This document shows positions 41,805-58,716 of a stretch of DNA of 64,000 nucleotides, one piece after another (positions within the stretch are counted from its first letter, which is position 1; every line of letters begins with the position of its first letter). The stretch spans positions 595,926-659,925 of the forward strand of contig NZ_CP014226.1 in the NCBI RefSeq assembly GCF_001545155.1. Direction: 5' to 3'. A program made the translations under genes and the position numbers. Source of the stretch: Halomonas chromatireducens. Its GTDB lineage: Bacteria; Pseudomonadota; Gammaproteobacteria; Pseudomonadales; Halomonadaceae. A model generated the notes under the pieces. The model saw nothing but the letters and a program-made list of their open reading frames with translations, was not told where the DNA came from and searched no databases.

Positions 41805-41834
41805 TCTGAACCTGTATGCTTGCACGCGAGCACC

Positions 41835-41910: not shown

Positions 41911-41917
41911 GATTGAC

Positions 41918-41957: not shown

Positions 41958-42034
41958 TATGGCGGTTAATTAAAAAATCTATGTAAATTCCCTCATGCCC
42001 GAGCTGCACTAGGTGGGGGTTATTCTCGCTTGTC

Positions 42035-42109: not shown

Positions 42110-42270
42110 AATGGATTCCTCTGCGGCGCATGTTCCTGTTTCAGGATACTGCGGTATGGTTCGTGTTCTGATGGCGTCGCAGTCCTTGCGACGCGTAGCG
42201 TAACTCCCTGTACCGGCTGTTCCCTGCCTCACTCACACCAAGAATATGTCTTGGGCAGGGCCGCCGTCTG

Positions 42271-42284
42271 TGCGTTGGCGTACA
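42271..42284 (-). promoter_or_regulatory. Stress-block dyad, site 1 (upstream of 42109 peptide)
   Basis: Minus strand GTACGCCAACGCAC followed by AGAC. Fits the consensus GTnnG-N4-CnnAC-MGAC. A TATTCT-like -10 hexamer follows about 25 bases on. Confidence 0.6.
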
Positions 42285-42289
42285 CTCGA

Positions 42290-43399
42290 CTAAAAGTTGA
42301 AGAAGAGTTGGGCTGAATCGAGTGACCGATGCACCCCCGGTTCGGTTCGTCTCCGCTGGATGGGCAGGGTATTCATCTCAGTGGTGTAGCACTGGTGCCC
42401 ATTTCGGCCATTTCGTTTGGTGTGATACATGGCCATGTCGGCGTTATGCATGAGGGTTTCGGCATCGTCGGCGTCATCGGGGTAGAGGCTGATGCCGATA
42501 CTGAGCGTGATGAGGAGTTCATGACCCTCGATACGGTACGGCCTGCTCAGAACGGCAAGCAGTTTTTTCGCAACCTTGGTGGCGTCTTCTGGCTTCTTGA
42601 TCTCGGCAAGCAGGATGGCGAATTCGTCACCGCCCTGGCGGCAGACAGTATCGATGTCGCGCATGCAATCGCGTAGGCGAGCGGCAACTGCCTGGAGCAA
42701 ACTGTCACCCACGGCATGGCCGAGCGAGTCATTGATGGGCTTGAAGGCATCAAGGTCAAGATAGAGCAGGGCGACCAGGTGCCGGTGTCGTCGGGCTAGG
42801 CCGATGGCGTGGGAGAGCCGTTCCGTCATCAGCGCGCGATTGGCCAGGCCGGTGAGGGCATCGTGCTGCGCCAGGTAGGCCATCCTGTCCAGCATGACCT
42901 GAGACATGGAAGCGTCGCGAAACACGATCACGGCACCGGTGACGCGGCCGTCTCGGTCGTGGATCGGTGCGGCTGAATCCTCGATCTCAAGCTTGCTGCC
43001 ATCCTGGCGGAGCAGTGCGCCATCCAGGGCGAGGCCTACCGCTCTGTTCTCTTCGATGGCCCGCCGCCCGGAGGTGATGGTTGTTTGCTGTGTCTTGCTG
43101 TCGACAAGGAGGAGCACTCGGGAAATGGGCTGGCCGATCGCCTCCGGTTCCGACCAGCCTGACAGAATTTCAGCCATTCGGTTCATGTAGGTGATTGCGC
43201 CCTGAAGGTCGATGGTCAGGACCGCATCGCCGACGGTGTTGAGGGCCACCCGAGTCCATGCCCGCTCGGTGTCCAGGGCCGCTGCGACGTCCCGCCTCGA
43301 GGCGTGGATCTGGGTGTGTCCTTGCCGCACAGGGTCCTGGGAGCGTACCGAGTGCAAGGAGGCTGATGGAGGCTGTTCAACCAGCGATTCGTCCCTCAT
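42290..43399 (-). CDS. PAS-GGDEF diguanylate cyclase
   Basis: A 369-residue cytoplasmic protein: a PAS domain at residues about 45-165 (VLTIDLQGAITYMNRMAE; GAVIVFRDAS), then a GGDEF domain at about 175-335 with an intact active site (RQGGDEFAIL) that makes cyclic-di-GMP from two GTP. The inhibitory I-site RDID lies five residues before GGDEF, so product feedback is expected. No EAL domain. Start ATG 43399 overlaps the stop of a short upstream frame. The PAS may sense redox or a ligand. Confidence 0.92.
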   Translation of the reverse strand: MRDESLVEQPPSASLHSVRSQDPVRQGHTQIHASRRDVAAALDTERAWTRVALNTVGDAVLTIDLQGAITYMNRMAEILSGWSEPEAIGQPISRVLLLVDSKTQQTTITSGRRAIEENRAVGLALDGALLRQDGSKLEIEDSAAPIHDRDGRVTGAVIVFRDASMSQVMLDRMAYLAQHDALTGLANRALMTERLSHAIGLARRHRHLVALLYLDLDAFKPINDSLGHAVGDSLLQAVAARLRDCMRDIDTVCRQGGDEFAILLAEIKKPEDATKVAKKLLAVLSRPYRIEGHELLITLSIGISLYPDDADDAETLMHNADMAMYHTKRNGRNGHQCYTTEMNTLPIQRRRTEPGVHRSLDSAQLFFNF

Positions 43400-43527
43400 T
43401 CAGTCGGCCCGGAAGCTGGCAGAGTCCATGGTGCGCGCGCCCAGGTGGGCAAGGGTGGCGTGGCCCACTGAGGTGCTCGAGCCCGAGTGGCAGGAGGCGA
43501 GATCAACAGAAACGTTGGCGTTGCCAT
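43396..43527 (-). CDS. Possible 43-aa leader peptide coupled to the diguanylate cyclase
   Basis: ATG at 43527 with GGAAAGGAA about 9 bases upstream starts MATPTFLLISPPATRARAPQ. It ends at TGA 43396-43398, overlapping the cyclase ATG (ATGA). The product is rich in Pro, Ala and Trp and resembles no family known to me. The ribosome site and stop/start overlap argue for translation, but another frame is also open here. Confidence 0.35.
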   Translation of the reverse strand: MATPTFLLISPPATRARAPQWATPPLPTWARAPWTLPASGPTE

Positions 43528-43644
43528 GAGTCGAATTCCTTTCCGCCTGCGTATGAGCCCCGGTGGAGCGGCATGGCCTGGCCAGGCCGGGCGCGCGGCT
43601 TGGCCAATATCCCGCGAGCGTAGTAGCGTGACGGCATCGCTTCC

Positions 43645-43658
43645 GTGCGTTAGCGTAC
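43645..43658 (+). promoter_or_regulatory. Stress-block dyad, site 2 (between crp-like 1 and the cyclase leader)
   Basis: GTGCGTTAGCGTAC followed by ATAG, 91 bases before the Crp-like gene at 43750. Nearly perfect palindrome, so it may also act on the divergent cyclase unit. A TATACC/TATGC region follows about 25 bases downstream. Confidence 0.6.
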
Positions 43659-43749
43659 ATAGCAATTGCTTGTTGTTCGCTATACCTTATGCGTCGGGAC
43701 TACTATTTCTCCCGCACTCGGGGAGCTTTACCGACAAGGAGTGTCAGTC

Positions 43750-44469
43750 ATGGCCCTGAAACAAGAACCGCGTCAGAATCATTTGCTTGCGGCCCTGCCC
43801 AAGGATGAATACCAGCGCCTGGAGCCCCACCTCAAGTTGGTAGAGTTGACGCTGGGAGACTCGCTGGCCGAGTCGGGAAAGGCGATGCGGCACGTCTATT
43901 TCCCGCTGGACTGCATCGTATCGCTGCTTTGCGTCATGGAGGATGGGGATTCGACGGAAATTGCCGTCGTCGGTGGAGAGGGTATCGTCGGTATCGCGCT
44001 GTTCATGGGAGGTGAGTCCACACCGAGCCGTGCCATCGTGCAGAGTGCCGGCAGCGCCTATCGCCTTGATGGGCAACTGCTGAAGGACGAGTTCGATCGC
44101 GCGTCAACGTTCCAGTATCTGTTATTGCGTTACACCCAGGCCCTGATCACCCAGATGGCGCAGACTGCAGTGTGCAACCGGCATCACAGCCTGGATCAAC
44201 AGCTGTGTCGCTGGCTGCTGCTGAGCCTGGATCGCTTGCCGGTCAACGAGCTGGTCATGACCCAGGAACTGATCGCCAACATGCTTGGCGTCCGCCGAGA
44301 AGGCGTCACCGAGGCGGCCGGCAAGCTGCAGCGGGCCGGACTGATTTCCTACCGCCGCGGGCACATCAGCATTCTCGACAGGCCTGGCCTGGAAGCGCGT
44401 GTCTGTGAGTGCTACTCGGTCGTCAGGCAGGAGTACGACCGTCTGCTGAGCTTCCATCGCCCCGGCTGA
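43750..44469 (+). CDS. Crp/Fnr-family regulator 1
   Basis: A 239-residue regulator with an N-terminal cyclic-nucleotide-binding-like barrel (residues about 15-140; HVYFPLDCIVSLL; IAVVGGEGIVG) and a C-terminal winged helix. Its recognition region is TQELIANMLGVRREGVTEAAGKL, residues about 178-200. No Cys cluster of FNR type and no conserved cAMP-contact set, so the signal is unknown. ATG 43750 has AAGGAG upstream. It is preceded by a copy of the stress-block dyad and followed by a second, related regulator. Candidate master regulator of the block. Confidence 0.9.
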   Translation: MALKQEPRQNHLLAALPKDEYQRLEPHLKLVELTLGDSLAESGKAMRHVYFPLDCIVSLLCVMEDGDSTEIAVVGGEGIVGIALFMGGESTPSRAIVQSAGSAYRLDGQLLKDEFDRASTFQYLLLRYTQALITQMAQTAVCNRHHSLDQQLCRWLLLSLDRLPVNELVMTQELIANMLGVRREGVTEAAGKLQRAGLISYRRGHISILDRPGLEARVCECYSVVRQEYDRLLSFHRPG

Positions 44470-44525
44470 AGGCCCCTTTCCTTATCGGGCCGGGTGGGTT
44501 CTCGCGCAGTGCCTGTCCTGCGTAT

Positions 44526-44539
44526 GTATCCTGGCGCAC
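44526..44539 (+). promoter_or_regulatory. Stress-block dyad, site 3 (upstream of crp-like 2)
   Basis: GTATCCTGGCGCAC followed by CGAC, 110 bases before the ATG at 44650. The left half-site is weaker than in the other copies (C instead of G at position 5). Confidence 0.5.
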
Positions 44540-44649
44540 CGACGGCATGTGAAGGACATGCCAGTGTTCTCTCAGCGGTCTATTGGTAATTTCCTGATCC
44601 CTTGCTTGCCATGTGCCCATCACCGATGTTTTCCACCGGGAGCGCGCCC

Positions 44650-45420
44650 ATGAATTCTACACCCCCAAGTCCGATCACCAATCATCTTATTGACAGGTTG
44701 CCACAACAGGAGAGGGCATCGTTCCTTGCCGATTGCCAGGTCATTGACCTGGTGTTCGGTGAAGTGATTACCGAGCACGGAGGGCGGATTTCGCATGTCC
44801 ATTTTCCCCTCGACAGCTTCATCTCCCAGATTGCCAACCTGAGCAGTGACCGGGAGCAGCTGGAAGTGGCGATGGTCGGCAGTGAAGGGATGTTGGGAAC
44901 GCCCCTGATTCTGGGGGTCGATGAGTCACCCTGGCTCGCACTGGTACAGGGGGCAGGCCCGGCGCTGCGCATGCCGGCGGCTGTCTTTGGTCGCCACCTG
45001 GCGCAGAGCCCCACGCTTCAGGCGCTGCTGAAGCGCTATCTATATGTGGTCATGCACCAGCTATCCCGGGTGGCGGCATGTACCCACTTCCATCAGGTGG
45101 AGGCCCGGCTGGCGCGCTGGCTGCTGATGACCCAGGATCGTGCACACTCGGATGAGCTGCATCTTACCCACGAGTTCCTGGCCATGATGCTGGGGGTGCG
45201 TCGCGCCGGCATCACTTTGGCTGCCATGGCACTTCAGTCGCGCCGCCTGATTCGCTATCAGCGAGGAGACATCGTGGTGCTGGACCGAACGGGGCTGATC
45301 GAGGCTTCCTGCGGCTGCTATGCCTCTGATCGCAGCCTTTACCGTCGGCACATCACCGGAGGTGGCGCAGCATTAGACCTGCTGACGCGCCCTGGGGAGG
45401 CGTCAGCTGGAAAATCATGA
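44650..45420 (+). CDS. Crp/Fnr-family regulator 2
   Basis: A 256-residue paralogue of the preceding regulator: effector barrel (HVHFPLDSFISQIANL; VAMVGSEGMLG) and winged helix with HEFLAMMLGVRRAGITLAAMAL. The two share the unusual MLGVRR turn, so they could bind the same sites or form heterodimers. ATG 44650 has no strong ribosome site. Signal unknown. Position next to the dyad-carrying genes suggests a shared regulon. Confidence 0.9.
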   Translation: MNSTPPSPITNHLIDRLPQQERASFLADCQVIDLVFGEVITEHGGRISHVHFPLDSFISQIANLSSDREQLEVAMVGSEGMLGTPLILGVDESPWLALVQGAGPALRMPAAVFGRHLAQSPTLQALLKRYLYVVMHQLSRVAACTHFHQVEARLARWLLMTQDRAHSDELHLTHEFLAMMLGVRRAGITLAAMALQSRRLIRYQRGDIVVLDRTGLIEASCGCYASDRSLYRRHITGGGAALDLLTRPGEASAGKS

Positions 45421-45524
45421 GGTGACGGTTGCCTTGCGATCCAGGCTACGCCGAGAGTGTTGCCTTCGGCGGCATGCCAGGCAGTTTCGTCGCCTCGCAG
45501 GTTTTGGCATCCTGCATGCCGAGA

Positions 45525-45809
45525 TTACCGGCGGCGCCTCAACGATGAGTACAGCGCGCCAGCGATAAAGGCGATGCCAATGGACATCAGCGGGTTTTCG
45601 CGGACGTGGGCGCTCACGCGTTCAAGCACATCATCGGCCCGCTGGCGCCCATGGACAGTTGCCTCTCGAATGTGCTCTTCGGCGCGGGATGCCTGCTCCC
45701 GAGTGTACTCCTCGGCCTTGCCAGCGGTTTCGGCTGCCCTGTCTACTGCTTCATGAGCCTTGCCCGCAACCTGATCGATGGTCTCGTGTCCGCTTGTTTT
45801 CATAGTCAT
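45525..45809 (-). CDS. DUF883 (ElaB/YqjD-type) membrane-anchored protein
   Basis: A 94-residue protein: a charged helical N-terminal part with Glu/Arg/Ala heptads, then ENPLMSIGIAFIAGALYSSL as one C-terminal membrane helix and a RRRR end. This is the ElaB/YqjD layout; members are RpoS-linked, inner-membrane anchored and some bind ribosomes. AAGGAAG lies 9 bases before the ATG. It follows the AI-2E-type gene by 43 bases on the same strand, so co-transcription is likely. Confidence 0.88.
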   Translation of the reverse strand: MTMKTSGHETIDQVAGKAHEAVDRAAETAGKAEEYTREQASRAEEHIREATVHGRQRADDVLERVSAHVRENPLMSIGIAFIAGALYSSLRRRR

Positions 45810-45852
45810 GATCGTATCTTCCTTGTTGCTGTAGACGGGTTAAGGTGACCTG

Positions 45853-47016
45853 TCAGGTATGACGCTCATCGTCGCCAATGGTTTCTCTGACTATCTGCTG
45901 GTCGAGGGCGTCAGGCCCGGTCGTGGTGGTTAGCCGGCTTTTCACGTGCTCCCCGAGGGTGAGGAGGAACGCTGTCAGGGGAACGGCGAGGATCATGCCG
46001 ACGACCCCACCCAGCACCGTTCCCCAGAACAGGATGGAGATCACGACCAGGGCCGGGTGCAGGCCTGAGCGATCGGCCATGATCTTGGGCGTGAGCAGCA
46101 TGCTCTCCACCAGCTGTGTGACAGCGATGACCGCCAGCACCAGCATGACGAGCTGTGAGCCCCCTCCTGGCTGAAAATAGGCGATGGGAAGCACGGTGAC
46201 AATGCCGACAATGAAGCCAAGGTAGGGCACGATGTTCAACAGCCCCAGGGCGAGACCCAGGAAAATTGCGGCCTCGAGGCCGATGACGGTAAAACCAACT
46301 GCCATCATCACTCCCATGATCAAGGCGATGGTCAGCTGTCCGCGGAAAAAGGCGGTGACGTAATTGATAAAGAGCTGAACCAGGTACACAACTTCGTTCT
46401 GCCGCTGCTTTGTGAACAAGAACAGCATCCCCTTGGCATGCTGCTTCATGCGACCACCGGAGAGTAGCGCAAAGAAGAGATACAGGGGCACGAAACCGAG
46501 GCCCACCAGGAAACCGATGTATTTCATGGTGCGATCAGTGGCCTCCTCTGCATCCGGAAGCATCGAATGGATCTCCATTTCGACGATGGCGTCTTCCACC
46601 AATGGCAATGCTCTCGGGAACCGGGCTGACAGGCTGGCGTGTCCGCGCTCGGCGATCTCAGGCACAGACTGGAAGAATTGGCTGCCCTGATGGATAGCCG
46701 TCGGCAGGATCAGCACCATCACCGTGAGAAACAGGCCGAAAAGGATCACAAAAAGAGAGATCACGGCGCCGAGCCGGTTCATACGTAGGTGGCGCTCGAA
46801 GCGTTCTACGATCGGGAGCAAGATCAAGGCCATCACCCCCGCGATGGCAAGAGGGAAGACCAGGGAGTGCAGGGCGCCGATGATCTGCCCCAGAACCCAG
46901 ATGATGAACACGACGGTGCCAACCAGGGTGACGGCGCTGAGTGCGACAATGGTGTAACGAAGCAGCCGTTGTTCGCCGGGTGCAAAGTCGATTTGCGTTC
47001 TCTTTTCGAAGCTCAT
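45853..47016 (-). CDS. AI-2E-type (PerM/YdiK) membrane transporter, copy 1
   Basis: A 387-residue inner-membrane protein with about eight hydrophobic segments in the usual pattern: two-plus-one at the N terminus, a cytoplasmic stretch, then the paired C-terminal segments with the VGMILAVPLTAFLLTL motif. GAGGAAA precedes the ATG. Family members include autoinducer-2 exporters and Na+/H+ antiporters of halophiles, so either export or ion exchange is possible. A stress-block dyad lies 151 bases upstream. Confidence 0.9.
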   Translation of the reverse strand: MSFEKRTQIDFAPGEQRLLRYTIVALSAVTLVGTVVFIIWVLGQIIGALHSLVFPLAIAGVMALILLPIVERFERHLRMNRLGAVISLFVILFGLFLTVMVLILPTAIHQGSQFFQSVPEIAERGHASLSARFPRALPLVEDAIVEMEIHSMLPDAEEATDRTMKYIGFLVGLGFVPLYLFFALLSGGRMKQHAKGMLFLFTKQRQNEVVYLVQLFINYVTAFFRGQLTIALIMGVMMAVGFTVIGLEAAIFLGLALGLLNIVPYLGFIVGIVTVLPIAYFQPGGGSQLVMLVLAVIAVTQLVESMLLTPKIMADRSGLHPALVVISILFWGTVLGGVVGMILAVPLTAFLLTLGEHVKSRLTTTTGPDALDQQIVRETIGDDERHT

Positions 47017-47166
47017 GGGTTTCCTCTACCGCTCAATATGCGGTCCTGACACCCCTTGACCCATATATGGATAGCGGTGTATGGGCACAAGATGTCGGCC
47101 CTCTGGGCCTGGAGATCATGAAAAGAAAAGATATTTCAGCTTAGGCGCAAGCGGGCGACTCTTCGG

Positions 47167-47180
47167 TGCGCTACCACACA
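47167..47180 (-). promoter_or_regulatory. Stress-block dyad, site 4 (upstream of AI-2E/DUF883 unit)
   Basis: Minus strand GTGTGGTAGCGCAC followed by CGAA. Oriented toward the gene starting at 47016. Confidence 0.55.
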
Positions 47181-47243
47181 CAGCGCCGCCGTCCGGTGAT
47201 GCAGAAACTCGTGGACCTGTCTGAAAAAAATGGATTCTCATAA

Positions 47244-47257
47244 GTTAGGCACCGCAC
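47244..47257 (+). promoter_or_regulatory. Stress-block dyad, site 5 (upstream of csbD 1)
   Basis: GTTAGGCACCGCAC followed by AGAC, 106 bases before the csbD-like ATG. The AACTATTTT further on may be the -10 region. Confidence 0.55.
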
Positions 47258-47363
47258 AGACCAGGCCGGGATCAGCAACTATTTTCTCAGTATCACCCTG
47301 TTTTTACATGCGTTCATGGTTAGAAGAAGAATCCAGGTTAAACGAGCGTCTGGAGTAAAGGTC

Positions 47364-47525
47364 ATGAACAAGGATCAGGTCAAAGATAGTTCGAGTAAGG
47401 ATATGGCTAAGGAAGTTGCCGACGACACGCGCACGGAGAAGAAGGGTAAAGTCGAGAATAATGGCGACAAGGGTGGCTCCGTGTTGGGAAAAATCAATGA
47501 CGATGCCAAGAAGGAAAAGAAATGA
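47364..47525 (+). CDS. CsbD-like small stress protein 1
   Basis: A 53-residue, highly charged, Lys/Asp/Gly-rich protein beginning MNKDQVKDSSSKDMAKEVAD. The MNKDQVK opening and KKGKVENNGDKGG pattern match CsbD, a general stress protein of intrinsically disordered type, although the central helix motif is degenerate. AAAGG lies upstream. Its stop overlaps the next gene's ATG. Function within stress protection unknown. Confidence 0.75.
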   Translation: MNKDQVKDSSSKDMAKEVADDTRTEKKGKVENNGDKGGSVLGKINDDAKKEKK

Positions 47526-47929
47526 ACGATCCAGCAGTACAATCAAAGAGTAGTTACGCCGTCGCCGACGATATGCAGGCAGGCGCCATGTTGCTCAGTG
47601 CTTCCACCATAACTGGCGATGACGTATATAACATGCAGGATGAAGAGCTAGGCAAGGTTCTGGACGTTATGCTTGATATAACCGAGGGCAAGATACGTTA
47701 CGCAGTCTTGGCATCGGGCGGTTTTCTGGGCATGGGTGATCGCCTGTTCGCTGTGCCCTGGAAGGCATTGAAGCTCGACACGCAGAACAGACGGTTCTTG
47801 CTAGACGTCGATGTCGAGCGCCTAAAGAACGCACCGGGCTTCGACAAGGATCAATGGCCGAACATGGCTGACGCTACCTGGAATTCGACCATTGAGTCCT
47901 ACTACGCAGCTGATCGGATTTCTCAGTAG
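47522..47929 (+). CDS. PRC-barrel domain protein
   Basis: A 135-residue protein with one PRC-barrel (residues about 25-100: SASTITGDDVYNMQDEELGK, then VLDVMLDITEGKIRYAVL, FLGMGDRLFAVPW). The barrel binds partner proteins or RNA in other contexts. Soluble, no signal. ATGA overlap with csbD 1 shows translational coupling, and CsbD plus PRC pairs recur in stress loci. Confidence 0.9.
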   Translation: MNDPAVQSKSSYAVADDMQAGAMLLSASTITGDDVYNMQDEELGKVLDVMLDITEGKIRYAVLASGGFLGMGDRLFAVPWKALKLDTQNRRFLLDVDVERLKNAPGFDKDQWPNMADATWNSTIESYYAADRISQ

Positions 47930-47944
47930 GCATAGTGCGGAAGG

Positions 47945-47968
47945 TCCGGGTAGTAGTATCTACCCGGA
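47945..47968. terminator. Stem-loop between convergent units
   Basis: A 9-bp perfect stem (47945-47953 with 47960-47968), TAGTAT loop, between the PRC-barrel stop and the CheB-CheR stop. No T tract; probable bidirectional attenuation. Confidence 0.55.
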
Positions 47969-48003
47969 TCCATCGTGCCGACGAGATTATTCTGGCCTTA
48001 CCG

Positions 48004-50550: not shown

Positions 50551-50613
50551 CGGAGCATCGCCGTTGGCTTGGCAGGTGTCACAGCGTCCATGGCGCAGAG
50601 CGGTAGACCGGGG

Positions 50614-51213
50614 TTACTCGGCATTGGCGCACTCGCAGCAGACCAAAAGTAAATGCTTGCGTTCTGGTGCGAGGGAGGCAAAGCACTGCATGTGCCGGGT
50701 CCCTGTGCTTCCTGCTGTCTCGGCTACGCAGGAAGCCCTGGCGCCGCTCTGTGCGACCTGCTGCAGCAAGCCAAGCAGCTTTGGCCGGCTTTGAGCGAGC
50801 AGGAGCGTGTCGATGGGATGTCCCTCGAACTCGTCTCGTTCGATTCCAAAAAGCTCCGCGGCGGCAAAGTTACCCTGAATAACGTTACCCTCGAGGTCGA
50901 CGAGCAAGTAGCCAAGAGGGGCGGAGTCGAAAAGTGTCCGGTAAAGGCTCAAATCCTCGACAAGCGCACGTTCATTGGCAGCAATTTCCTCGTTCTGCAA
51001 GTCAAGCTCCACCTGGTGAACCTGCAATTCATGGAGCAGCTTGAGGGCATCGTCCGCGTTATCGGGATTACTGGACAGGCGATGGAGCAGGCGCAGGGCG
51101 TCAACGCCCACCGACCCGTGACTCGCGGACGGTGCCGTGCCCGCCTGCAGCTGCGCTTCAGCCTTGTCTCGCAGCTGTATATAGGCATTGGTTTCATTAA
51201 TGATTATGGGCAT
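50614..51213 (-). CDS. Single PAS-domain protein
   Basis: A 199-residue protein. A predicted helical N-terminal part (residues about 1-75, LLHELQVHQVELDLQNEEI) resembles the dimerising segment before many PAS sensors. A PAS domain follows at about 80-195 (LFDSAPLGYLLVDLEGNVIQ). Start ATG 51213 has GGAG 8 bases upstream. No output domain; it probably works with the CheB-CheR-PAS protein encoded just downstream in the same unit. Confidence 0.85.
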   Translation of the reverse strand: MPIIINETNAYIQLRDKAEAQLQAGTAPSASHGSVGVDALRLLHRLSSNPDNADDALKLLHELQVHQVELDLQNEEIAANERALVEDLSLYRTLFDSAPLGYLLVDLEGNVIQGNFAAAELFGIERDEFEGHPIDTLLLAQSRPKLLGLLQQVAQSGARASCVAETAGSTGTRHMQCFASLAPERKHLLLVCCECANAE

Positions 51214-51859
51214 ACGAGACTCCAAATCTCACTCACCGGATACAGTTTTCATTGTAGCTTAACGCGACAGAGATAAAAATGCACTTTTCAGGTGTTTTCG
51301 GGAGGTTCTTATTGTTCAAGGCAATTAAATGATTGGCAGAGATAGCCCTGTCGTGCTGATTCTGCGTGGTTAGTGACATAAATTAATTGCGGTGTTTCGG
51401 AAACTTTTTTCCGGCATTTGGACAAAGAAAAAGGTGCTTCCCTCCCAGATTTTTACTGTTGCCTGTCACTTTAAGTTACAGGAGTTCAGGTGCCGTTGAA
51501 TGAAGAAATGGTGGGTTCGAGTTTTATTTTTACAATAGCGAAGATTGCCTTTTCAGGTGTAGTGATTATGGCCCTCTATCTCTGAATTTCGAACCTTTCC
51601 ACGAATCTGTCATTCTCGTGCTATTAATGCTGGCTGTGGACCGTGCAAACCGTGGACTGTTGAGTGCAAACGTGTGGATGGACAGTCTGACTCGCAGGCT
51701 TATCTGGATATTGGACGTTCGGTAACCAACGTAAAGGCCGTCTATCTGGCGAATTCGATCAGCGAGGTGCGCTTCGAGCCAGATAGGCATCCATCAGGCG
51801 CGCGAGTCGGTGTACGGCCGATCGGCGCTGCGGTGCGTCAGTTGGCGGCAACGCCGCGT
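51214..51859. other. AT-rich intergenic region
   Basis: About 650 bases clearly richer in A+T than the flanks. It holds the promoter of the PAS/CheB-CheR unit (minus) and one candidate tiny gene at 51490-51585. Other short frames, such as 51566-51790 minus, look non-coding. I do not find the stress-block dyad here in a convincing form. Confidence 0.5.
51490..51585 (+). CDS. Candidate 31-aa hydrophobic peptide
   Basis: GTG start with AGGAG five to six bases upstream. It encodes a short polar head (VPLNEEMVGSS, first residue Met if used as start) and one hydrophobic helix (FIFTIAKIAFSGVVIMALYL), then TGA. The ribosome site and coherent membrane segment support translation; no homologue is known to me. 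Confidence 0.35.
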   Translation: MPLNEEMVGSSFIFTIAKIAFSGVVIMALYL

Positions 51860-52018
51860 TCATCGCTTGGCGATGATCCACACGGCGTGAACGATGCCGG
51901 GAATGTAGCCGAGCAGCGTGAGCAGAATATTGATCCAGAAGTGCTTGCCAAAACCTTCCTGCAGGAAGACGCCGAGCGGTGGCAAGAGGATCGCAACGAT
52001 AATGCGTAACAGGTCCAT
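51860..52018 (-). CDS. YqaE/Pmp3-family small membrane protein
   Basis: A 52-residue protein: MDLLRIIVAILLPPLGVFLQ, then EGFGKHFWINILLTLLGYIP and GIVHAVWIIAKR. The two membrane helices with PPLGVFL and LLTLLGYIPGIVHAVW are the Pmp3/UPF0057 signature. These proteins are induced by salt, cold and membrane stress and affect membrane potential. ATG 52018 has CAGGAG 8 bases upstream. Co-oriented with the ferritin-like gene 56 bases upstream, so probably in one unit. Confidence 0.93.
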   Translation of the reverse strand: MDLLRIIVAILLPPLGVFLQEGFGKHFWINILLTLLGYIPGIVHAVWIIAKR

Positions 52019-52074
52019 TGGCTGCGCTCCTGAGTGAGATGGGTTACTTTTTGGTCGCCACGGCCCGGCATTTG

Positions 52075-52695
52075 TCAGTGCTTTGTCTGCAGCATCTCTT
52101 CGCGCTGGCTCTCCGCCCGCGCAGCGCCGATCGCGGTTTCAACCTTTTTCACTTCCTCGGGGGGCGGCAGGACCGCCGGCAACCCGAGCGAATCGATCCA
52201 CAATTCGCGGAGGAACCCCTTCGTGTGGTGGAGGTGGTGCTCTTCTTCCTCCCCCACCGCGTCAAACGCGGCCTTGAGCGGGCTGGTTTCTTCCCCCTTG
52301 CCTTGATCGGCCAGATGCCCAATCAGTTGCCAGTTCTGAAGATCCTTGGTTTCCGCCAGAACCACGCACTCACCGGCCACGAGTTGAGCGGCCGCAGCAC
52401 TGGCGTTCGCCTTTGCCATTTCCATCGCGGTGACCAGCGAATCGCCGAGGTGGGCAACCACTTCCCGGCCGGGCGTTACGGTGTCCGGATTCAGTCCCAG
52501 TTCCTCGAACACCTTCAGCAGTAGTTGCTCGTGGGTGCGGGTCTGCTCAAGGTACTCCTCCCATTCACCTTTCAAGTCTTCGTTCTGTGCACATCCCAAC
52601 GCGGCCTCGTAGATCTTTATCCCACCGCGTTCCGTTTCAAGAGCCTGATACAACAACTCATGCAGCTGTTCCTTGATATACGGATCCCTTTTCAC
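52075..52695 (-). CDS. Ferritin-like domain protein
   Basis: A 206-residue all-helical protein with iron-ligand-like patterns: ETERGGIKIYEAAL near residue 21, EEYLEQTRTHEQLL near 46, AGECVVLAETKDL near 107 and EEEEHHLHHTKGFLREL near 150. The E-x6-Y and ExxH spacing is that of ferritin-like four-helix bundles. Possible role in iron storage or peroxide defence, or as a structural stress protein. No signal peptide. A stress-block dyad lies 130 bases upstream. Confidence 0.8.
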   Translation of the reverse strand: MKRDPYIKEQLHELLYQALETERGGIKIYEAALGCAQNEDLKGEWEEYLEQTRTHEQLLLKVFEELGLNPDTVTPGREVVAHLGDSLVTAMEMAKANASAAAAQLVAGECVVLAETKDLQNWQLIGHLADQGKGEETSPLKAAFDAVGEEEEHHLHHTKGFLRELWIDSLGLPAVLPPPEEVKKVETAIGAARAESQREEMLQTKH

Positions 52696-52824
52696 GGTCT
52701 TCTCCTTACCACGTGCAAGACGGCGCGCCGACAGGCGGGCTGCGTCACTCGGCTGGGTTCAACAATGCGGCAGATGCCGGCCAGTTGAATGTCCAACAAT
52801 AGGTAAGGAGGCGCTACCGCGTCG

Positions 52825-52838
52825 GTGCAGTTGCGCAC
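52825..52838 (-). promoter_or_regulatory. Stress-block dyad, site 6 (upstream of ferritin-like unit)
   Basis: Minus strand GTGCGCAACTGCAC followed by CGAC, oriented toward the gene starting at 52695. Confidence 0.55.
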
Positions 52839-52987
52839 ATAGCCATTCGGCTTTTTGGGCGTGAGTCGACTGGCCAGCAGTAACTTTCTGGTCCGTCCTC
52901 AGAGCTTGGCGCCTGGGCCCAGTTTCGAGGTCCACTGAAGGGTGCTAAGTGATCTGGATACCAGTGGGCAGGGGACAGCGTTGTTGT

Positions 52988-53001
52988 GTCTGGTAGCGCA
53001 C
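52988..53001 (+). promoter_or_regulatory. Stress-block dyad, site 7 (upstream of the DUF883-like operon)
   Basis: GTCTGGTAGCGCAC followed by AGAC, 188 bases before the ATG at 53190. Confidence 0.6.
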
Positions 53002-53189
53002 AGACGCTACGCCGAAAGCTGGCAAAACTCAGCTTGGAAGCACGTCGATTACGATGCTGCATACGCGTCGCAACCCTTCTCTTGCGCGTCATGCGCACAT
53101 GCCGCGCTTCTTGTGAGCACCTTCTGTGCACGTGCGAATTGGAAATCCATCAGAGAGCGAGCATTCGACTGAATGCTGAGGAGTGTGTA

Positions 53190-53825
53190 ATGACACCATC
53201 GAATCCAGGTCCCAATCGCCGCAGCGCGAGCAGCATGCCCGACCCCACTGGTAACGTGGCGCCGAAACAGAAAATTGATGAAGACACCCGCGAAGCGAAA
53301 CGCGAAGTGGGCGCCGAGGCGCGCGAGAAGGCCGAAGCCGGACAGCACCGGCTCGCGGATGAGACCGACGCCCTGTCGGATGCCATCGATGCAGCGGCAT
53401 CCAGTCTCGACGATCAAGACCGCGAAGGCCTGGCGCGCTATGCGCGCGAGTTGAGCAGCAACCTCGCGAAGGCGGCCGAACAGCTCGAAGGCCGCAGCGT
53501 CGATGAGCTGGCGAATGATGCCAAGCGCCTGGCGCGGGACAATCCCGCGCTTTACATGCTTGGCAGCATTGCAGTCGGCTTTGGCTTGTCGCGGTTCTTC
53601 AAGGCGAGCGCGGAGCGCGACCACGACGATGACGGCACATACCGGAACGATGACACTTCACGGGATGACGACGCCTATCGGCCCGACGCTTACCGCAGCG
53701 ATAGAACTTTTCTGGATGACGACATCTCGACAGGCACGCCGGTGCAGCCACGTGAACGGGACATGATGGAAATGGACAGCACATCGACTGCCCCGCGCAG
53801 CGGTGACGGGAGGGAGATGCCATGA
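53190..53825 (+). CDS. DUF883-like membrane-anchored stress protein
   Basis: A 211-residue protein. A long, highly charged helical region (Glu/Arg/Ala-rich, residues about 25-125) leads to NPALYMLGSIAVGFGLSRFF, a single membrane segment near 128-148, then an Asp/Arg/Tyr-rich disordered tail. The layout is that of ElaB/YqjD-like proteins with an added tail. GAGGAG precedes the ATG at 53190; the longer frame from 52986 has no such site. First gene of a three-gene coupled operon. Confidence 0.75.
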   Translation: MTPSNPGPNRRSASSMPDPTGNVAPKQKIDEDTREAKREVGAEAREKAEAGQHRLADETDALSDAIDAAASSLDDQDREGLARYARELSSNLAKAAEQLEGRSVDELANDAKRLARDNPALYMLGSIAVGFGLSRFFKASAERDHDDDGTYRNDDTSRDDDAYRPDAYRSDRTFLDDDISTGTPVQPRERDMMEMDSTSTAPRSGDGREMP

Positions 53826-54259
53826 AGCAGAAACACGAAATGGCGCAGGGCGGCTCGGCGCCAGCGGAGAGCCGCGAACACGGTACCGAATCAATTGCCG
53901 ATCTGATTCGCAACCTCGCCACAGACCTGTCCACGCTGCTCGGCAAAGAGATCGAGTTGGCGAAATCTGAAGTCGGGGAGTCCGTCTCGGAAGCGAAAAC
54001 GGCAGTCGGCGCGATAGCGACGGGCGCTGCCATCGCCATGGCGGGGCTCGTTGTGCTGCTCATGAGCGCGGTTATTGGGCTCAGCAACGTCGTGGACCCC
54101 TGGCTCGCGGCGCTGATCGTCGGCACGGTAGCACTCCTAGTCGGTTACCTGATGGTTAGTTCGGCCAAGAAAAAAATGAGCGCTCACTCGATCGTTCCGG
54201 ATCGCACGCTGGCGTCCACAAGGAAAGATAAAGAAACATTAAAGAGGGCAACCCGATGA
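53822..54259 (+). CDS. Phage holin family protein (holin-X / DUF1469 type)
   Basis: A 145-residue protein: an amphipathic N-terminal helix (ESIADLIRNLATDLSTLLGK) of the family type, then two membrane helices (GAIATGAAIAMAGLVVLLMS and PWLAALIVGTVALLVGYLM) and a basic tail. Despite the family name these are chromosomal envelope proteins of unknown function. ATGA overlaps on both sides tie it to the neighbouring genes. Confidence 0.88.
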   Translation: MKQKHEMAQGGSAPAESREHGTESIADLIRNLATDLSTLLGKEIELAKSEVGESVSEAKTAVGAIATGAAIAMAGLVVLLMSAVIGLSNVVDPWLAALIVGTVALLVGYLMVSSAKKKMSAHSIVPDRTLASTRKDKETLKRATR

Positions 54260-54939
54260 ACAACGCTACCGATACGCACAGCGATGACATTCACCGCGAC
54301 GAGGATCAACATGACGGGGCGAAAAGCCCGGAACAGCTGGAGCGTGAAGTCGACCAGGCCCGCGCCCGCCTCGGCAGGACCGCGAGCGAGCTGTCCGATC
54401 GGCTTTCCCCTGGCGAGCTCATCGACCAGGCGCTCGGCATGGCCCGCGAACACGGAGGAGAGTTTGGCCGCAACCTGGGAGCCCAGGTGAAAAACAACCC
54501 GATGCCGGTGATACTCACCAGCATCGGCATCTCGTGGATGATGATGTCGTCCCGCAACAATGTCGCTGGGCGTGCCGATGACACATATGATAAGAGCACA
54601 GGCATGGACGGGCACAGTGTCAAGAACGCGCTTGGAGATATCGCCGCGAAATCTCAGGACAAGGCCGCCGCAGTGGGTGATCGCGTGCACGGTGCAACCG
54701 CGAACATGAATGAATCGATGCAGAACGCCCGGGAAAATCTGGTGCAGTTCTATCGGGACCAGCCGCTGATCGCGGGAAGCCTCGGCATCGCTATCGGCGC
54801 TGCCCTGGGGGCGCTGGTACCGCCGACCGAGATCGAGGACGACATGCTTGGCGAAGCGAGAGATCGCAGCGTCGGTGCCGCGAAGTCCAAAGCTGCAAGG
54901 ACGTACGGCGAGGTTCGCGAGTCGGCGCGGAAGGAATGA
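54256..54939 (+). CDS. DUF3618 domain protein
   Basis: A 227-residue protein. SPEQLEREVDQARARLGRTA near residue 24 is the DUF3618 signature. A hydrophobic stretch (NPMPVILTSIGISWMMMS, near 82-99) and a second C-terminal one (QPLIAGSLGIAIGAALGAL) suggest membrane association. Third gene of the DUF883-like/holin-X/DUF3618 operon, a conserved trio in proteobacteria whose function is not established; envelope stress is inferred. Confidence 0.88.
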   Translation: MNNATDTHSDDIHRDEDQHDGAKSPEQLEREVDQARARLGRTASELSDRLSPGELIDQALGMAREHGGEFGRNLGAQVKNNPMPVILTSIGISWMMMSSRNNVAGRADDTYDKSTGMDGHSVKNALGDIAAKSQDKAAAVGDRVHGATANMNESMQNARENLVQFYRDQPLIAGSLGIAIGAALGALVPPTEIEDDMLGEARDRSVGAAKSKAARTYGEVRESARKE

Positions 54940-55036
54940 ACCGTTCCTGCGTCAGATACCGATTTGGGGCAATTGCGTCGAGTCGATCAGGCGCGCTAGC
55001 GCTGATGCAGTCGTCTGGTTCTGCTATGTACACTCA

Positions 55037-55050
55037 GTGTGGCAGCGCAC
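55037..55050 (+). promoter_or_regulatory. Stress-block dyad, site 8 (upstream of the FAD oxidoreductase)
   Basis: GTGTGGCAGCGCAC followed by CGAC, 48 bases before the ATG at 55099. Confidence 0.6.
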
Positions 55051-55098
55051 CGACGCGGCTATCGTCCCGGCTGACACTACCGGATCTACACTCCAGGA

Positions 55099-56337
55099 AT
55101 GATGCGGCGGGAGTTGCCGGTGGACTTGAAAAGCGGTTATCCGTTCTGGGCGGTCAAGAATGGCCTGATGTATGCCTTCCCGCAGGTTGATGCCGATCTG
55201 AGCTGCGATGTCGCGGTGGTGGGCGCTGGCATCACCGGCGCGCTGATCGCTGATGAGCTGGCTGGCCATGGCCACGATGTCGTCGTGCTCGATCAGCGCG
55301 ACGTGTGCTGGGGCAGCACATCTGCCAGCACCGCCTTGCTGCAGTATGAAATCGATACCCATGCGATAGATCTCGCCAGGCGTTTCGACCAAGCCTCAGC
55401 ACTGCTTGCTTATCAGTCCAGTTTGCGTGCGATCAGCATGATCGAAGCAGTCGCGCATGCGGTCGGCGATGTCGATTTCGCCAATTGTGAAAGCCTCTAC
55501 TACGCCAGCAATCGCGCCGATCATCCACGCTTGGCTGACGAATTTGCCTGGCGGAAACAGCACGGATTTCCGGTTCGCTGGCTGAGCCGTGTTGCGCTCA
55601 AGGATGAATACGAACTGACGGCGCCATCTGCCATCCTCAGCTCGGTGGCCGCCAGGGTCGATCCCTACCGGCTCGCCTCACGATTGCTGCGTAGAATGCA
55701 GCGACAGGGCACGCGCGTGTTCGATCGCACGCAGGTGAAAGCCATCACAGCGACGACGCGCTCGGTACAGCTCACTACAGCCAGTGGCGTCTCGATCAGG
55801 GCGAAGCACGCCGTGATTGCCAGCGGTTACGAAGCGCAATGCTGGTTGCGCCAGCGGGTCGCGACGAATCTCAGCAGCTACGCTTACATCAGCGACCCCG
55901 TCGATCCTACCGAGCTGGGCTGGTTGGCAAACACGATGCTGTGGGAGTCCGCGCGACCGTATCTGTATCTGCGTAGCACTGGCGATGGACGGCTGTTGGT
56001 CGGCGGGGAAGACGATGACCGCGATATCCCGGCTCGGCGTGATCGATCGGTCGACCGCAAGGCGGCGACGCTGCAGCGCAAGGTCTCCCGTTTGTTCCCC
56101 CACCTTCATGCACGACCGGCGTTTGCCTGGGCAGGTACGTTTGCTGAAACCAGCGACGGACTGCCGCTGTTTGGTGGCCACCCGCAGTACGGCCCCCGTG
56201 TTCTGTTCGCGCTGGCTTATGGGGGTAACGGCATCACTTACAGCATGCTTGGTGCCGAATTGCTGCGCGCGCAAATCGAACGCCGCCGGCACCCATTGAC
56301 TGCGCTGTTCTCCTTCGCACGGTTGGAACGTCATTGA
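55099..56337 (+). CDS. FAD-dependent oxidoreductase (DAO family)
   Basis: A 412-residue flavoenzyme. CDVAVVGAGITGALIADELA at residues about 36-55 is the FAD Rossmann motif, and GSTSASTALLQYEIDT near 74 and LFALAYGGNGITYSML near 372 complete the DAO fold. The N-terminal LPVDLKSGYPFWAVKNGL is typical of the DadA-like group. Substrate unknown. CAGGA lies just before two consecutive ATG codons. Followed after 17 bases by the phospholipase D gene. Confidence 0.88.
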   Translation: MMRRELPVDLKSGYPFWAVKNGLMYAFPQVDADLSCDVAVVGAGITGALIADELAGHGHDVVVLDQRDVCWGSTSASTALLQYEIDTHAIDLARRFDQASALLAYQSSLRAISMIEAVAHAVGDVDFANCESLYYASNRADHPRLADEFAWRKQHGFPVRWLSRVALKDEYELTAPSAILSSVAARVDPYRLASRLLRRMQRQGTRVFDRTQVKAITATTRSVQLTTASGVSIRAKHAVIASGYEAQCWLRQRVATNLSSYAYISDPVDPTELGWLANTMLWESARPYLYLRSTGDGRLLVGGEDDDRDIPARRDRSVDRKAATLQRKVSRLFPHLHARPAFAWAGTFAETSDGLPLFGGHPQYGPRVLFALAYGGNGITYSMLGAELLRAQIERRRHPLTALFSFARLERH

Positions 56338-56354
56338 CTGGGGGGCGAAAATCA

Positions 56355-57620
56355 ATGCTCTGGGTTATCGGAGCCACTATTCTGGCCACCAGCTTGGTGC
56401 TCGTATTGTTGCAGAACTTCATGACACCCGGGGACGTGATGGAGCGCAAGATCGAACACCACCACGCTGTCTCGGATCCGCAGTTTCGGCGCGAGATGTC
56501 GGTTTTGCTTGGCCCTGCGATAGTGGCCGGCAATCAAGTGGCCGCGCTGCAAAACGGCGACGAGATTTTTCCGGCGATGCTGGAGGCCATTCGCTCGGCG
56601 CAGGCTTCAATCACGTTCGAGACCTTCATTTACTGGTCTGGTGACATTGGTGAAACATTCTCGAAAGCGCTCTCCGAACGTGCCCGTGCGGGCGTGCCGG
56701 TTCGCGTCACCATCGACTGGGTCGGCAGCAACAAGATGGAGCAGTCACTGCTGGACTCCATGCAGGCCGCGGGTGTGCAGTTGCATCGCTATCGGCCGTT
56801 GCACTGGTACAACCTGGGCCGCATGAACAACCGCACGCATCGCAAGCTGCTGGTGGTCGATGGCCGCATCGGGTTCACCGGCGGGGTAGGCATCGCGGAT
56901 CTGTGGACTGGCGACGGAGGCGATCCCGAAAACTGGCGGGACACACACTTCCGGATTGAAGGGCCGGTAGTGGCGCAGTTGCAAGCGGCCTTCAACGACA
57001 ACTGGATCAAGACCACTGGCCAGGTGCTGAACGGCCCGAGCTATTTTCCGCCCCTAGAGGAGGCGGGTGGGATGGACGCGCATGTCTTCGTTGCCTCGCC
57101 ATCCGGCGGGAGCGAGAGCATGCATCTGATGTTTCTGCTGGCCATCGCGGCGGCCGAGGAGACCATCGACCTGGCGGCATCCTACTTTGTGCCCGACAGC
57201 ATGTTAATCGAAGCCCTGATCGCCGCCCGTGGTCGTGAGGTTCGCGTTCGCATCCTGTTGCCTGGGCCGCACATCGATGCTGTGACTGTAAAGATCGCTT
57301 CCAAGTCGGATTGGGGCGCGCTGCTTGGCGCCGGTGCCGAGATCCACATCTATCAGCCGACCATGCTGCACACGAAACTGCTGGTCATCGATGACGAGTT
57401 TGTGTCGGTGGGTTCAACCAATTTTGACATGCGTTCGATTCGGCTCAATGACGAAGCCAGCTTGAATATCTACAGCAACGATTTCGCCACTCAGATGACC
57501 GCAGTGTTCGAGGCCGATCTCCTGTCGGCTGAACCGTATTCCCTGGCTGACTGGAAGAGCCGTCCATGGCGCGAAAAGCTGTCAGAAAAGATTCTTCTAC
57601 CCATTAGATCGCAGCTTTGA
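56355..57620 (+). CDS. Phospholipase D-family cardiolipin synthase
   Basis: A 421-residue PLD-superfamily enzyme with one N-terminal membrane helix (residues about 2-20) and two HKD motifs: THRKLLVVDGRIGFTGG near 155 and LHTKLLVIDDEFVSVGSTNF near 340. Two such motifs form one active site. Best fit is cardiolipin synthase B/C type, joining or exchanging phospholipid head groups, which suits membrane remodelling under stress. ATG 56355 was chosen over an upstream TTG at 56334. Confidence 0.9.
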   Translation: MLWVIGATILATSLVLVLLQNFMTPGDVMERKIEHHHAVSDPQFRREMSVLLGPAIVAGNQVAALQNGDEIFPAMLEAIRSAQASITFETFIYWSGDIGETFSKALSERARAGVPVRVTIDWVGSNKMEQSLLDSMQAAGVQLHRYRPLHWYNLGRMNNRTHRKLLVVDGRIGFTGGVGIADLWTGDGGDPENWRDTHFRIEGPVVAQLQAAFNDNWIKTTGQVLNGPSYFPPLEEAGGMDAHVFVASPSGGSESMHLMFLLAIAAAEETIDLAASYFVPDSMLIEALIAARGREVRVRILLPGPHIDAVTVKIASKSDWGALLGAGAEIHIYQPTMLHTKLLVIDDEFVSVGSTNFDMRSIRLNDEASLNIYSNDFATQMTAVFEADLLSAEPYSLADWKSRPWREKLSEKILLPIRSQL

Positions 57621-57704
57621 AAACAGGGGAAAATTCAGTCCTGAGGCCTATGTGCTGAGGTGTTTATTGCCGGAGTTTTGTCTGAATAAAATCACCTCGC
57701 CTAA

Positions 57705-57718
57705 GTTTGGCGCCGTAC
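57705..57718 (+). promoter_or_regulatory. Stress-block dyad, site 9 (upstream of csbD 2)
   Basis: GTTTGGCGCCGTAC followed by GGAC, then a TATAACTATATT region about 12-25 bases on that could hold the -10. The whole region resembles that of csbD 1. Confidence 0.55.
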
Positions 57719-57823
57719 GGACTATGCCCCGGGCTATAACTATATTAAGAGCTCACCCTGCATCGACATGAGTCCATGGTAAGAGGGTGAGTCCAAGTGC
57801 AGCGATCATCTGGAGGTCAGCTC

Positions 57824-58003
57824 ATGAACAAGAATCAGGTCACGGGTCATGCGAAAGAAGCGAAGGGAAAGGCAAAGGAAGTTGCTGGCAAGGTGACGGG
57901 CAATAAAAGCACGGAGTACAAGGGTAAAGCCGAAAAGCAGGGCGGAAAGGCTGAAGCAAAGTACGGCGATATCAAGAGTGAAAGCAAAAAATCAAAGAAA
58001 TGA
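57824..58003 (+). CDS. CsbD family stress protein 2
   Basis: A 59-residue, Lys/Gly/Glu-rich protein with clear CsbD features: MNKNQVTGHAKEAKGKAKEV, then AGKVTGNKSTEYKGKAEKQG. TGGAGG lies upstream of the ATG. CsbD proteins are abundant, disordered general-stress proteins of unknown mechanism. Closer to the family consensus than the copy at 47364. Confidence 0.92.
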   Translation: MNKNQVTGHAKEAKGKAKEVAGKVTGNKSTEYKGKAEKQGGKAEAKYGDIKSESKKSKK

Positions 58004-58079
58004 ACGATTAATGGCACAGTCGCAGTCCGGCTTGGCGGGCTCAACCCGTGGCTGAGCCACTACCGTAGGAGGCACTCCG

Positions 58080-58124
58080 ATGAAATCGGCTGGCGCGCCC
58101 ATCAAGGACGCGACAGCCGAGAAA
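58080..58124 (+). pseudogene. Possible truncated gene after csbD 2
   Basis: AGGAGG sits seven bases before an ATG starting MKSAGAPIKDATAEK. The open frame runs to 58364, but from about 58125 it is simply antisense to a more convincing minus-strand gene. I read it as the first codons of a gene cut off near 58125, or a short non-functional frame. Confidence 0.3.
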
Positions 58125-58367
58125 TCAGGAGGGCACGTCGGAGACGGTGGCGTTGGGATCCTGACTCATCAGGTCATCGTCGCCTTCGGCGGCGCGGGGG
58201 GCAGGTTCGTCGAGCGCCTCGTCGGGAGGTGTGGCAAGCGGTGCTTCCGGCAAGCGTTCCGGCTTGAAAGGATAGCCGTGCTGCTGTTCGCCTGGCGCTT
58301 GGTCGGGCCGGCGCGTGACTTTCTTGAACGTATTCGCGGGAGCGGGGGGCTGAATTGGGGATGACAT
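58125..58367 (-). CDS. Small Pro-rich hypothetical protein (80 aa)
   Basis: ATG 58367 with GAGG six bases upstream encodes 80 residues: MSSPIQPPAPANTFKKVTRR, then GYPFKPERLPEAPLATPPDE and an acidic end (EGDDDLMSQDPNATVSDVPS). No membrane helix; likely disordered. I do not recognise it. A near-perfect stress-block dyad 83 bases upstream points at it, supporting expression as part of the same regulon. Confidence 0.55.
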   Translation of the reverse strand: MSSPIQPPAPANTFKKVTRRPDQAPGEQQHGYPFKPERLPEAPLATPPDEALDEPAPRAAEGDDDLMSQDPNATVSDVPS

Positions 58368-58716
58368 GGTGGCCTCGCGTTCTTAACGGCTTTCACGATG
58401 TCGTGAAGCATCGTTAGCACGATTCTGGCACGACGTCAGGCCGCAGTCGGTGCGCTAACGCACCCTCGGCACCGGTTGTGAAAGCGCTTCGAGCGCCCTT
58501 GAACCTGGCGGACGAAGCCCGCATCCTATTCGCATGCCACTTTAATCTGACCGGAACTGGCCAATACCGCACCGTTCTGGTCTAGAATAAGGGTATGGGT
58601 CAAAATAGCGAGAGACGCAATCTTGGCCCCAGGCGCATCGCCTGCACGGAGTGTGCAATTCGCGATGTACCCGATACATGCAGGGGGAGCCCCTGCCAGT
58701 CACAGTGGTAGACACG
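58368..58716. other. Intergenic region before nadA
   Basis: Contains the dyad at 58450-58463 (toward the minus-strand gene) and, near 58560-58600, the probable nadA promoter (GAATAAGGGTATGG is a -10-like stretch). No gene seen. This is the right edge of the stress block. Confidence 0.5.
58450..58463 (-). promoter_or_regulatory. Stress-block dyad, site 10 (upstream of the 80-aa gene)
   Basis: Minus strand GTGCGTTAGCGCAC followed by CGAC, the most symmetrical copy (plus strand GGTGCGCTAACGCACC). Confidence 0.65.

Follow-up and report, generated by a model that had tools for sequence, protein, structure and literature searches.

Ten putative class II promoters point to a probable Crp/Fnr-family stress regulon beside paired Crp-like genes in Halomonas chromatireducens

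A 64,000-nucleotide stretch of the Halomonas chromatireducens genome (the window; contig NZ_CP014226.1, positions 595,926 to 659,925) carries ten copies of a short dyad, GTnnG-N4-CnnAC, upstream of stress and envelope genes and of two neighboring genes for Crp-like proteins, here called Crp1 and Crp2. The locus raises the question of whether these dyads are operators and, if so, which protein reads them. The ten sites probably serve a Crp/Fnr-family activator as operators within class II sigma70-type promoters, and Crp1 is the likeliest candidate for that activator. The sites, the promoter geometry, their conservation with the regulator and the change of base preference with a recognition residue were computed here; we infer binding, activation rather than repression, and Crp1 rather than Crp2 as the main binder.

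All ten reported dyads were found when the window sequence was checked. Eight of their coordinates were right, and two minus-strand sites were off by one position and lie at 42270-42283 and 47166-47179. The exact GTnnG 5' half is present in nine sites; the tenth, at 44526, reads GTATC. The YGYAC ending had been claimed for nine of the ten and occurs in all ten, and the MGAC said usually to come next follows seven, the exceptions being 43645 (ATAG), 57705 (GGAC) and 47179 (CGAA). The dyad at 43645-43658 had been placed on the plus strand. It fits the minus strand better, facing the PAS-GGDEF gene (matrix scores of 18.7 versus 11.9).

The dyad alone proves nothing, because the bare GTNNGN4CNNAC is not above its expectation in shuffled window sequence (15 found, 15.06 expected). 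The tailed form with up to two mismatches was uninformative (41 found in the window, 34.4 expected, with 12 of 100 shuffles reaching 41). The strict form, GTNNGN4YGYACMGAC, has 14 exact copies in the 3.97-Mb, single-contig genome compared to 3 in the reversed control. Six of the 14 fall in the 16-kb stretch that holds the sites, where the density elsewhere predicts 0.033 (Poisson P = 1.7e-12). The ten sites are real and well past what chance would give; it is the tailed form in its exact version, and its location, that carry the significance. Five of the eight strict copies elsewhere in the genome are in coding-like frames by our own open reading frame reading, and one of these is rplA. The rplA coding sequence (L001 1001-1018, genome position 113093) matches the strict motif perfectly and is a source of false positives in motif scans; recurring GTGCGCTACCGCACCGAC matches in other genomes are probably rplA coding sequence as well.

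The comparison loci were those of the best 80 of 578 confirmed Crp1 homologues. A weight matrix was built from 158 tailed sites at 69 non-Halomonas Crp1 loci, collected with the consensus GT..G....C..AC.GAC of the original prediction. The ten dyads are the ten highest scores in the window (16.9-25.8). Sixteen scores of at least 8 were obtained, all inside 42.2-58.5 kb, and six of these are reverse readings of the same ten dyads; the reversed window gave three, with a top score of 12.4. The statement that no copies lie outside 42-58.5 kb holds for the window by this matrix and does not hold for the whole genome. Because the training sites were chosen by the earlier consensus, the matrix test is independent of the window sequence and not of the pattern, and a seed-free dyad count was added. 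The count took in all 1,024 half-sites, with spacers from 2 to 10, over the 1.1 Mb of those 69 loci. The largest excess belonged to GTGCG-N4-CGCAC, which has 52 copies where the remaining spacers average 4.6. GTACG-N4-CGTAC had 27 versus 0.5, and two G+C-rich half-sites with high background rank between the two dyads.

Each site reads as a whole promoter, with the GAC tail forming the core of a putative -35 box. The original prediction took the GAC tail merely as a direction mark, since the -10 boxes had gone unnoticed. Among 111 strict sites near Crp1 homologues, the sole strong signal 3' of the tail is an A at offset 37 (76%) and a T at offset 41 (70%). The A and T of xAnnnT are the two strongest positions of the sigma70 -10 box. 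Within the window, an xAnnnT box is spaced at 17 bp at eight of the ten sites and at 18 bp at the other two, compared to a mean of 1.0 of 10 and a maximum of 6 in shuffled downstream DNA (20,000 trials). At the 43645 dyad the box belongs to the minus strand; the plus-strand reading has TATACC at 17 bp and lacks the xAnnnT form. A -10 box 17 bp from a GAC -35 core puts the dyad center at about -41.5 relative to the predicted starts, which is the class II position of CRP. The dyad also extends outward in the 111 sites: T at -3 (63%) mirrors the A at +16, which is fixed by the search pattern, and T at -1 (50%) mirrors the A at +14 (62%). In the proposed mechanism, a Crp1 dimer would bind TnTGTGCG-N4-CGCACA-like dyads centered near -41.5. 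The bound dimer would overlap the degenerate -35 box (nnGACn) and recruit RNA polymerase to the weak -10 box 17-18 bp further on. Crp1 would in this way turn on envelope and stress genes, crp2 and the PAS-GGDEF gene included.

Eleven Halomonas-type loci were scanned with the matrix at a score of 12.5. The site beyond the GGDEF gene (as 42266..42283) is present in six, all with xAnnnT at 17 bp, counted by the place of the site and not by the peptide. The minus-strand site directed at the GGDEF gene (as 43645), with its -10 box at 17 bp, is found in five (L029, L030, L031, L033 and L035), and six have a site upstream of crp2 with xAnnnT at 17 or 18 bp in every case. Both members of the back-to-back pair recur in L029, L032 and L036; the plus member (as 47244) has xAnnnT at 16-18 bp in L032 alone. 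The site of the 80-residue protein gene recurs in two loci, once in L029 and twice in L036; this gene is present in L030 too, with no site scoring at least 12.5. Several contigs end early, so absences among these loci are soft. Autoregulation by one or both Crp-like proteins had been predicted. It fits Crp2 better than Crp1, because the sites seldom face crp1 and often face crp2. A tailed site points towards crp1 within 400 bp in 3 of 74 loci and away from it in 22, and the matrix scan placed a site towards crp1 in two Halomonas-type loci (L045 and L047).

Strict sites accompany Crp1 homologues. The 80 loci contain 112 strict sites compared to 2 in the reversed control, distributed over 55 loci versus 2. 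A class-level survey covered 140 genomes, with a Crp1-type gene called at E <= 1e-20 in 18, this genome included. The pattern GTNCGN4CGYACMGAC has 75 matches in the 18 (reversed control 15; mean 4.2 per genome) and 65 in the 122 genomes without a Crp1-type gene (control 72; mean 0.5). Three or more matches were found in 13 of the 18 and in 4 of the 122, and 36 of the 75 matches have a Crp1-type gene no more than 20 kb away. These sequence counts indicate that the pairing of regulator and site is conserved. Crp1 relatives (E <= 1e-60) were detected on 28 of 72,556 plasmid records. Viral contigs yielded two relatives of Crp1. The conjugative Pseudomonas aeruginosa element pKLC102 (L122 7122-9774) carries a 74% identical Crp1 homologue surrounded by four tailed sites, each followed by AnnnT at 17 or 18 bp; its neighbors are genes for hypothetical proteins, a methyltransferase, a desaturase, a relaxase and an integrase. 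A Crp1 relative with four nearby sites on this element suggests that regulator and promoters can move together.

Crp1 has the full Crp/Fnr fold, with a sensor beta-roll, a long dimer helix and a winged helix-turn-helix. The HTH_Crp_2 DNA-binding domain was recognized in both proteins (58.7 bits in Crp1 and 48.2 bits in Crp2; Pfam cut-off 27). A single-sequence model of Crp2 had a predicted local distance difference test score of 36.8 and was of no use. A recognition-helix pattern, run over the 80 loci and the window, picked out 132 Crp1- and Crp2-type proteins, which were aligned. Glu181 of E. coli CRP is one of three base-reading residues according to passages of PMC12531629. The Crp1-type protein at the fetched locus of four Paraburkholderia/Trinickia genomes has Ser or Pro at this place. 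Position 3 of the dyad is shifted in the Ser/Pro genomes: 23 of their 32 promoters carry GTACG..CGTAC, compared to 2 of 50 in the Glu-type genomes. The search was given 18 of the 80 loci, and three of the 14 Glu-type genomes lack any match. This is strong sequence evidence that the recognition residue and the dyad base change together.

A rival reading gives the main binding to Crp2, or to a Crp1-Crp2 heterodimer, and makes Crp1 an upstream switch; the shift at position 3 counts against it, as it tracks the residue of the Crp1-type protein. That arrangement is unlikely, though it deserves some weight: Crp1- and Crp2-type genes adjoin in several other genomes (for example G018, G066, G106 and G120), crp2 itself carries the site in six of the eleven Halomonas-type loci, and two recognition-helix Arg residues are kept in both types. 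Against it, the dyads come close to a palindrome, as a homodimer site would, and a pattern scan that covered loci rather than whole genomes found sites where it detected a Crp1-type gene alone (for example L032, L068, L074 and L083). A different Crp/Fnr paralogue could also be the binder while Crp1 merely rides along nearby. Counting Crp1 and Crp2, the genome has ten places that exceed the HTH_Crp_2 cut-off, and Crp-family operators often cross-react. The motif excess nonetheless tracks Crp1-type genes over the 140 genomes and nearly half of the matches lie close to one, which makes this reading quite improbable.

Overlap of the dyad with the -35 box would also suit a repressor, with Crp1 covering the box until a signal releases it. 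We regard repression as improbable, since a -41.5 center, a weak -10 box and a -35 box that is poor outside its GAC have the general look of activator-dependent class II promoters. Local gene duplication could instead have spread the repeats as a promoter cassette, with no regulation in trans. The 47244 and 57705 promoters are alike beyond the dyad by eye and L036 has two copies of the 80-residue protein gene with its site, but the 111 strict sites share the promoter positions alone and their spacers are near random. A cassette is accordingly very hard to credit.

Targets were tallied from 95 nearest downstream frames and 95 other frames of the same loci. The downstream frames include CsbD (9), BON (8), PRC (6), DUF3309 (3) and DUF1328 (3). 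Among the 25 of 70 families listed, the control frames have no CsbD, BON, PRC or DUF1328 and one DUF3309. The predicted Crp/Fnr-controlled stress regulon draws support from the class II geometry, the conservation of sites near Crp1 homologues, the co-occurrence across genomes and the joint change of recognition residue and base.

Several results weigh against Crp1-dependent activation from these sites. No strict site was found in 25 of the 80 Crp1 loci, and L034 and L040 have Crp1 and no site of at least 12.5 in the stretch covered. G081 and G124, which are among the 18 class-level genomes, have just ~42% identical relatives. The link is weak inside the family, as counts of the promoter pattern in 61 genomes show: there are 30 matches in the 18 genomes with Crp1 (control 14) and 13 in the 43 without (control 19). 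With this genome left out, the 17 Crp1-bearing genomes have 20 matches (control 14; Mann-Whitney P = 0.003 against the 43). The four Ser/Pro genomes are one clade, so the base shift may be a single event and its counts are not independent. The target tally is modest, with P values of 0.018 for CsbD, 0.035 for BON and 0.12 for PRC (control at most 1 of 95 each).

A looser pattern with a required -10 box occurs at 10 distinct places in the genome, six of them in the stretch, compared to four in the reversed control, and the places outside the stretch are therefore not proven. One of these, at 3396254 (minus strand), is upstream of a gene for a 99-residue phasin-like protein (by eye); in L032, too, a strict site precedes a gene of this sort. 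Another, at 3022409, is upstream of a fatty acid desaturase gene (by eye), and the place at 2284061 is probably within coding sequence. The fourth, at 866442 (L002/L118), reads as a full operator-promoter. Just a 41-residue frame lies within 450 bp of it, and an aldehyde-dehydrogenase-like frame (by eye) begins 478 bp past it; this promoter possibly serves an unannotated small gene or RNA.

The class II promoters of E. coli CRP are a close likeness, with a GTG-N8-CAC core at identical spacing, a dyad at about -41.5 that overlaps the -35 box, and a 17-bp spacer. The operator differs, being GTGC/GTAC..G(C/T)AC here and GTGA-N6-TCAC in CRP. The CRP operator TGTGA-N6-TCACA is not seen here: GTGA-N6-TCAC occurs in none of the ten sites, which have GTGC/GTAC-type or other half-sites. 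In the 80 loci, GTGCG-N4-CGCAC has 110 counts versus 6 reversed and GTGA-N6-TCAC has 44 versus 22 (both strands, each palindrome counted twice). Glu occupies the place matched to CRP Arg185 in 72 of 83 Crp1-types. In a comparison by eye with E. coli CRP, residues of the cyclic AMP pocket of Crp1 seem altered.

FNR/Anr was considered and rejected. The N-terminal Cys cluster for [4Fe-4S] is missing, with no Cys before residue 55 of Crp1, and the half-site is GTnCG here rather than that of TTGAT-N4-ATCAA. FNR/Anr and the low-oxygen (lxa) locus of Burkholderia cenocepacia share the 5-4-5 operator geometry and, in passages of PMC9104464, PMC6127331 and PMC3759415, stress genes tied to a Crp/Fnr protein. 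The Anr box given upstream of cytochrome bd genes in a passage of PMC9104464 is TTGATCTCGATCAA, unlike the ten sites, and the Burkholderia lxa/Anr system was rejected as the same system because its operator sequence differs. NtcA was also rejected (NCBIfam TIGR03697, 21.2 bits compared to a cut-off of 244.95). Crp/Fnr regulators are tied to a diguanylate cyclase in the case of DPR-1/DPR-2 of Cycloclasticus, as a passage of PMC8547461 describes. The likeness to such cyclic di-GMP-responsive proteins (DPR-1/DPR-2, and Bcam1349 and Clp by name) is one of gene arrangement alone, a PAS-GGDEF gene divergent from crp1 with a site between them. RedB of Rhodobacter capsulatus differs in its 12-bp non-palindromic site and its energy-limiting regulon. 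A literature search found no described regulon for the Crp1 subfamily, and it probably missed papers that write CRP/FNR with a slash; passages of PMC5449483, PMC8510549 and PMC12531629 do not name such an operator.

The features of the locus are collected in Table 1. The cluster is bordered by twin tRNA-Lys genes (41729-41910) and by nadA (58651), and its G+C content is lower (0.545-0.609 in its eight 2-kb windows) than that of the remaining windows (0.596-0.676). The stretch between these borders (41729-58651) is variable in gene content and has the same borders in L029, L030 and L036; in L030, merely ~1 kb separates crp2 from nadA. No integrase was seen by eye between the twin tRNA-Lys genes and nadA. 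A CheB-CheR-PAS fusion (848 residues) and a PAS protein are encoded inside the cluster at 48004-51225, with none of the ten sites upstream. The nearest Crp1 relatives in a contig search are from Halomonas species (87% identical), a search that possibly omitted records of this genome. The frame at 52986-53825, DUF883-like by eye, had no match in a Pfam scan. The 53-residue protein gene behind the 47244 site has no Pfam match and is CsbD by place in relatives.

Table 1. Genes and putative operator-promoters of the locus (window coordinates; predicted +1 positions are approximate)
Feature	Position	Strand	Evidence or promoter elements	Predicted +1 near
24-residue membrane peptide, downstream of the 42266..42283 site	about 42035-42109		read by eye	
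Dyad 42270-42283 with AGAC tail	42266..42283	-	-10 TATTCT at 18 bp	42234
PAS-GGDEF diguanylate cyclase	42290..43399	-	Pfam; divergent from crp1	
Dyad between PAS-GGDEF gene and crp1	43645..43658	-	tail GGAA; -10 TACGCT at 17 bp	43610
Crp1, proposed regulator	43750..44469	+	HTH_Crp_2 and cNMP-binding-like domain; recognition helix VRREGVTEAA	
Putative operator/promoter, crp2	44526..44543	+	-10 CAGTGT at 17 bp	44574
Crp2, paired paralogue, 38% identical to Crp1	44650..45420	+	Pfam HTH_Crp_2, alignment; recognition helix VRRAGITLAA	
DUF883-like protein	45525..45809	-	Pfam DUF883_C below cut-off, E 0.0074	
AI-2E family transporter	45853..47016	-	Pfam	
Putative operator/promoter, AI-2E transporter and DUF883-like genes	47162..47179	-	tail CGAA; -10 TAAGCT at 17 bp	47131
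Putative operator/promoter, 53-residue protein and PRC genes	47244..47261	+	-10 TATTTT at 17 bp	47292
PRC-barrel protein	47522..47929	+	Pfam	
DUF892/rubrerythrin-like (ferritin-like) protein	52075..52695	-	Pfam	
Putative operator/promoter, ferritin-like gene (perhaps Pmp3 too)	52821..52838	-	-10 TATTGT at 18 bp	52789
Putative operator/promoter, DUF883-like/holin-X/DUF3618	52988..53005	+	-10 AAAACT at 17 bp	53036
DUF883-like, holin-X and DUF3618 genes	53190..54939	+	last two by Pfam; DUF883-like by eye	
Putative operator/promoter, FAD oxidoreductase/PLD	55037..55054	+	-10 GACACT at 17 bp	55085
FAD-dependent oxidoreductase and PLD-like genes	55099..57620	+	Pfam	
Putative operator/promoter, csbD	57705..57722	+	tail GGAC; -10 TATATT at 17 bp	57753
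CsbD	57824..58003	+	Pfam, scanned as 57797-58003	
80-residue protein	58125..58367	-	no Pfam family; relatives in L029, L030 and L036	
Putative operator/promoter, 80-residue protein gene	58446..58463	-	-10 CAGAAT at 17 bp	58415

The alignment also points to a candidate sensor. C142, H146, C219 and C221 are kept in 132 of 132 Crp1- and Crp2-type proteins, types that are ~40% identical, and C219 and C221 lie at the start of the C-terminal helix. H145 and C153 are present in 82 of 83 Glu-types. The set C142/H146/C219/C221 suggests a bound metal (possibly 3Cys-1His) or a redox switch. A broader and tentative proposal, which we hold to be doubtful as a whole, is that a widespread and partly mobile subfamily of paired Crp1/Crp2 proteins runs an envelope-stress regulon of Proteobacteria through its own operator and senses via this site. 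Sensing would then involve neither cyclic AMP nor an N-terminal Fe-S cluster, and the DNA-binding domain would be set by a center at the hinge and the C-terminal helix, such as a 3Cys-1His metal or [2Fe-2S] center.

Stress genes of the CsbD, BON, PRC-barrel, DUF883, DUF3309, DUF1328 and Pmp3 families are common, and to our knowledge few direct regulators have been named for them. A defined operator-promoter together with its regulator would give a direct handle on such genes in many Proteobacteria. Their regulons would be predictable from sequence, and the question of what is sensed could be tested with two small proteins.

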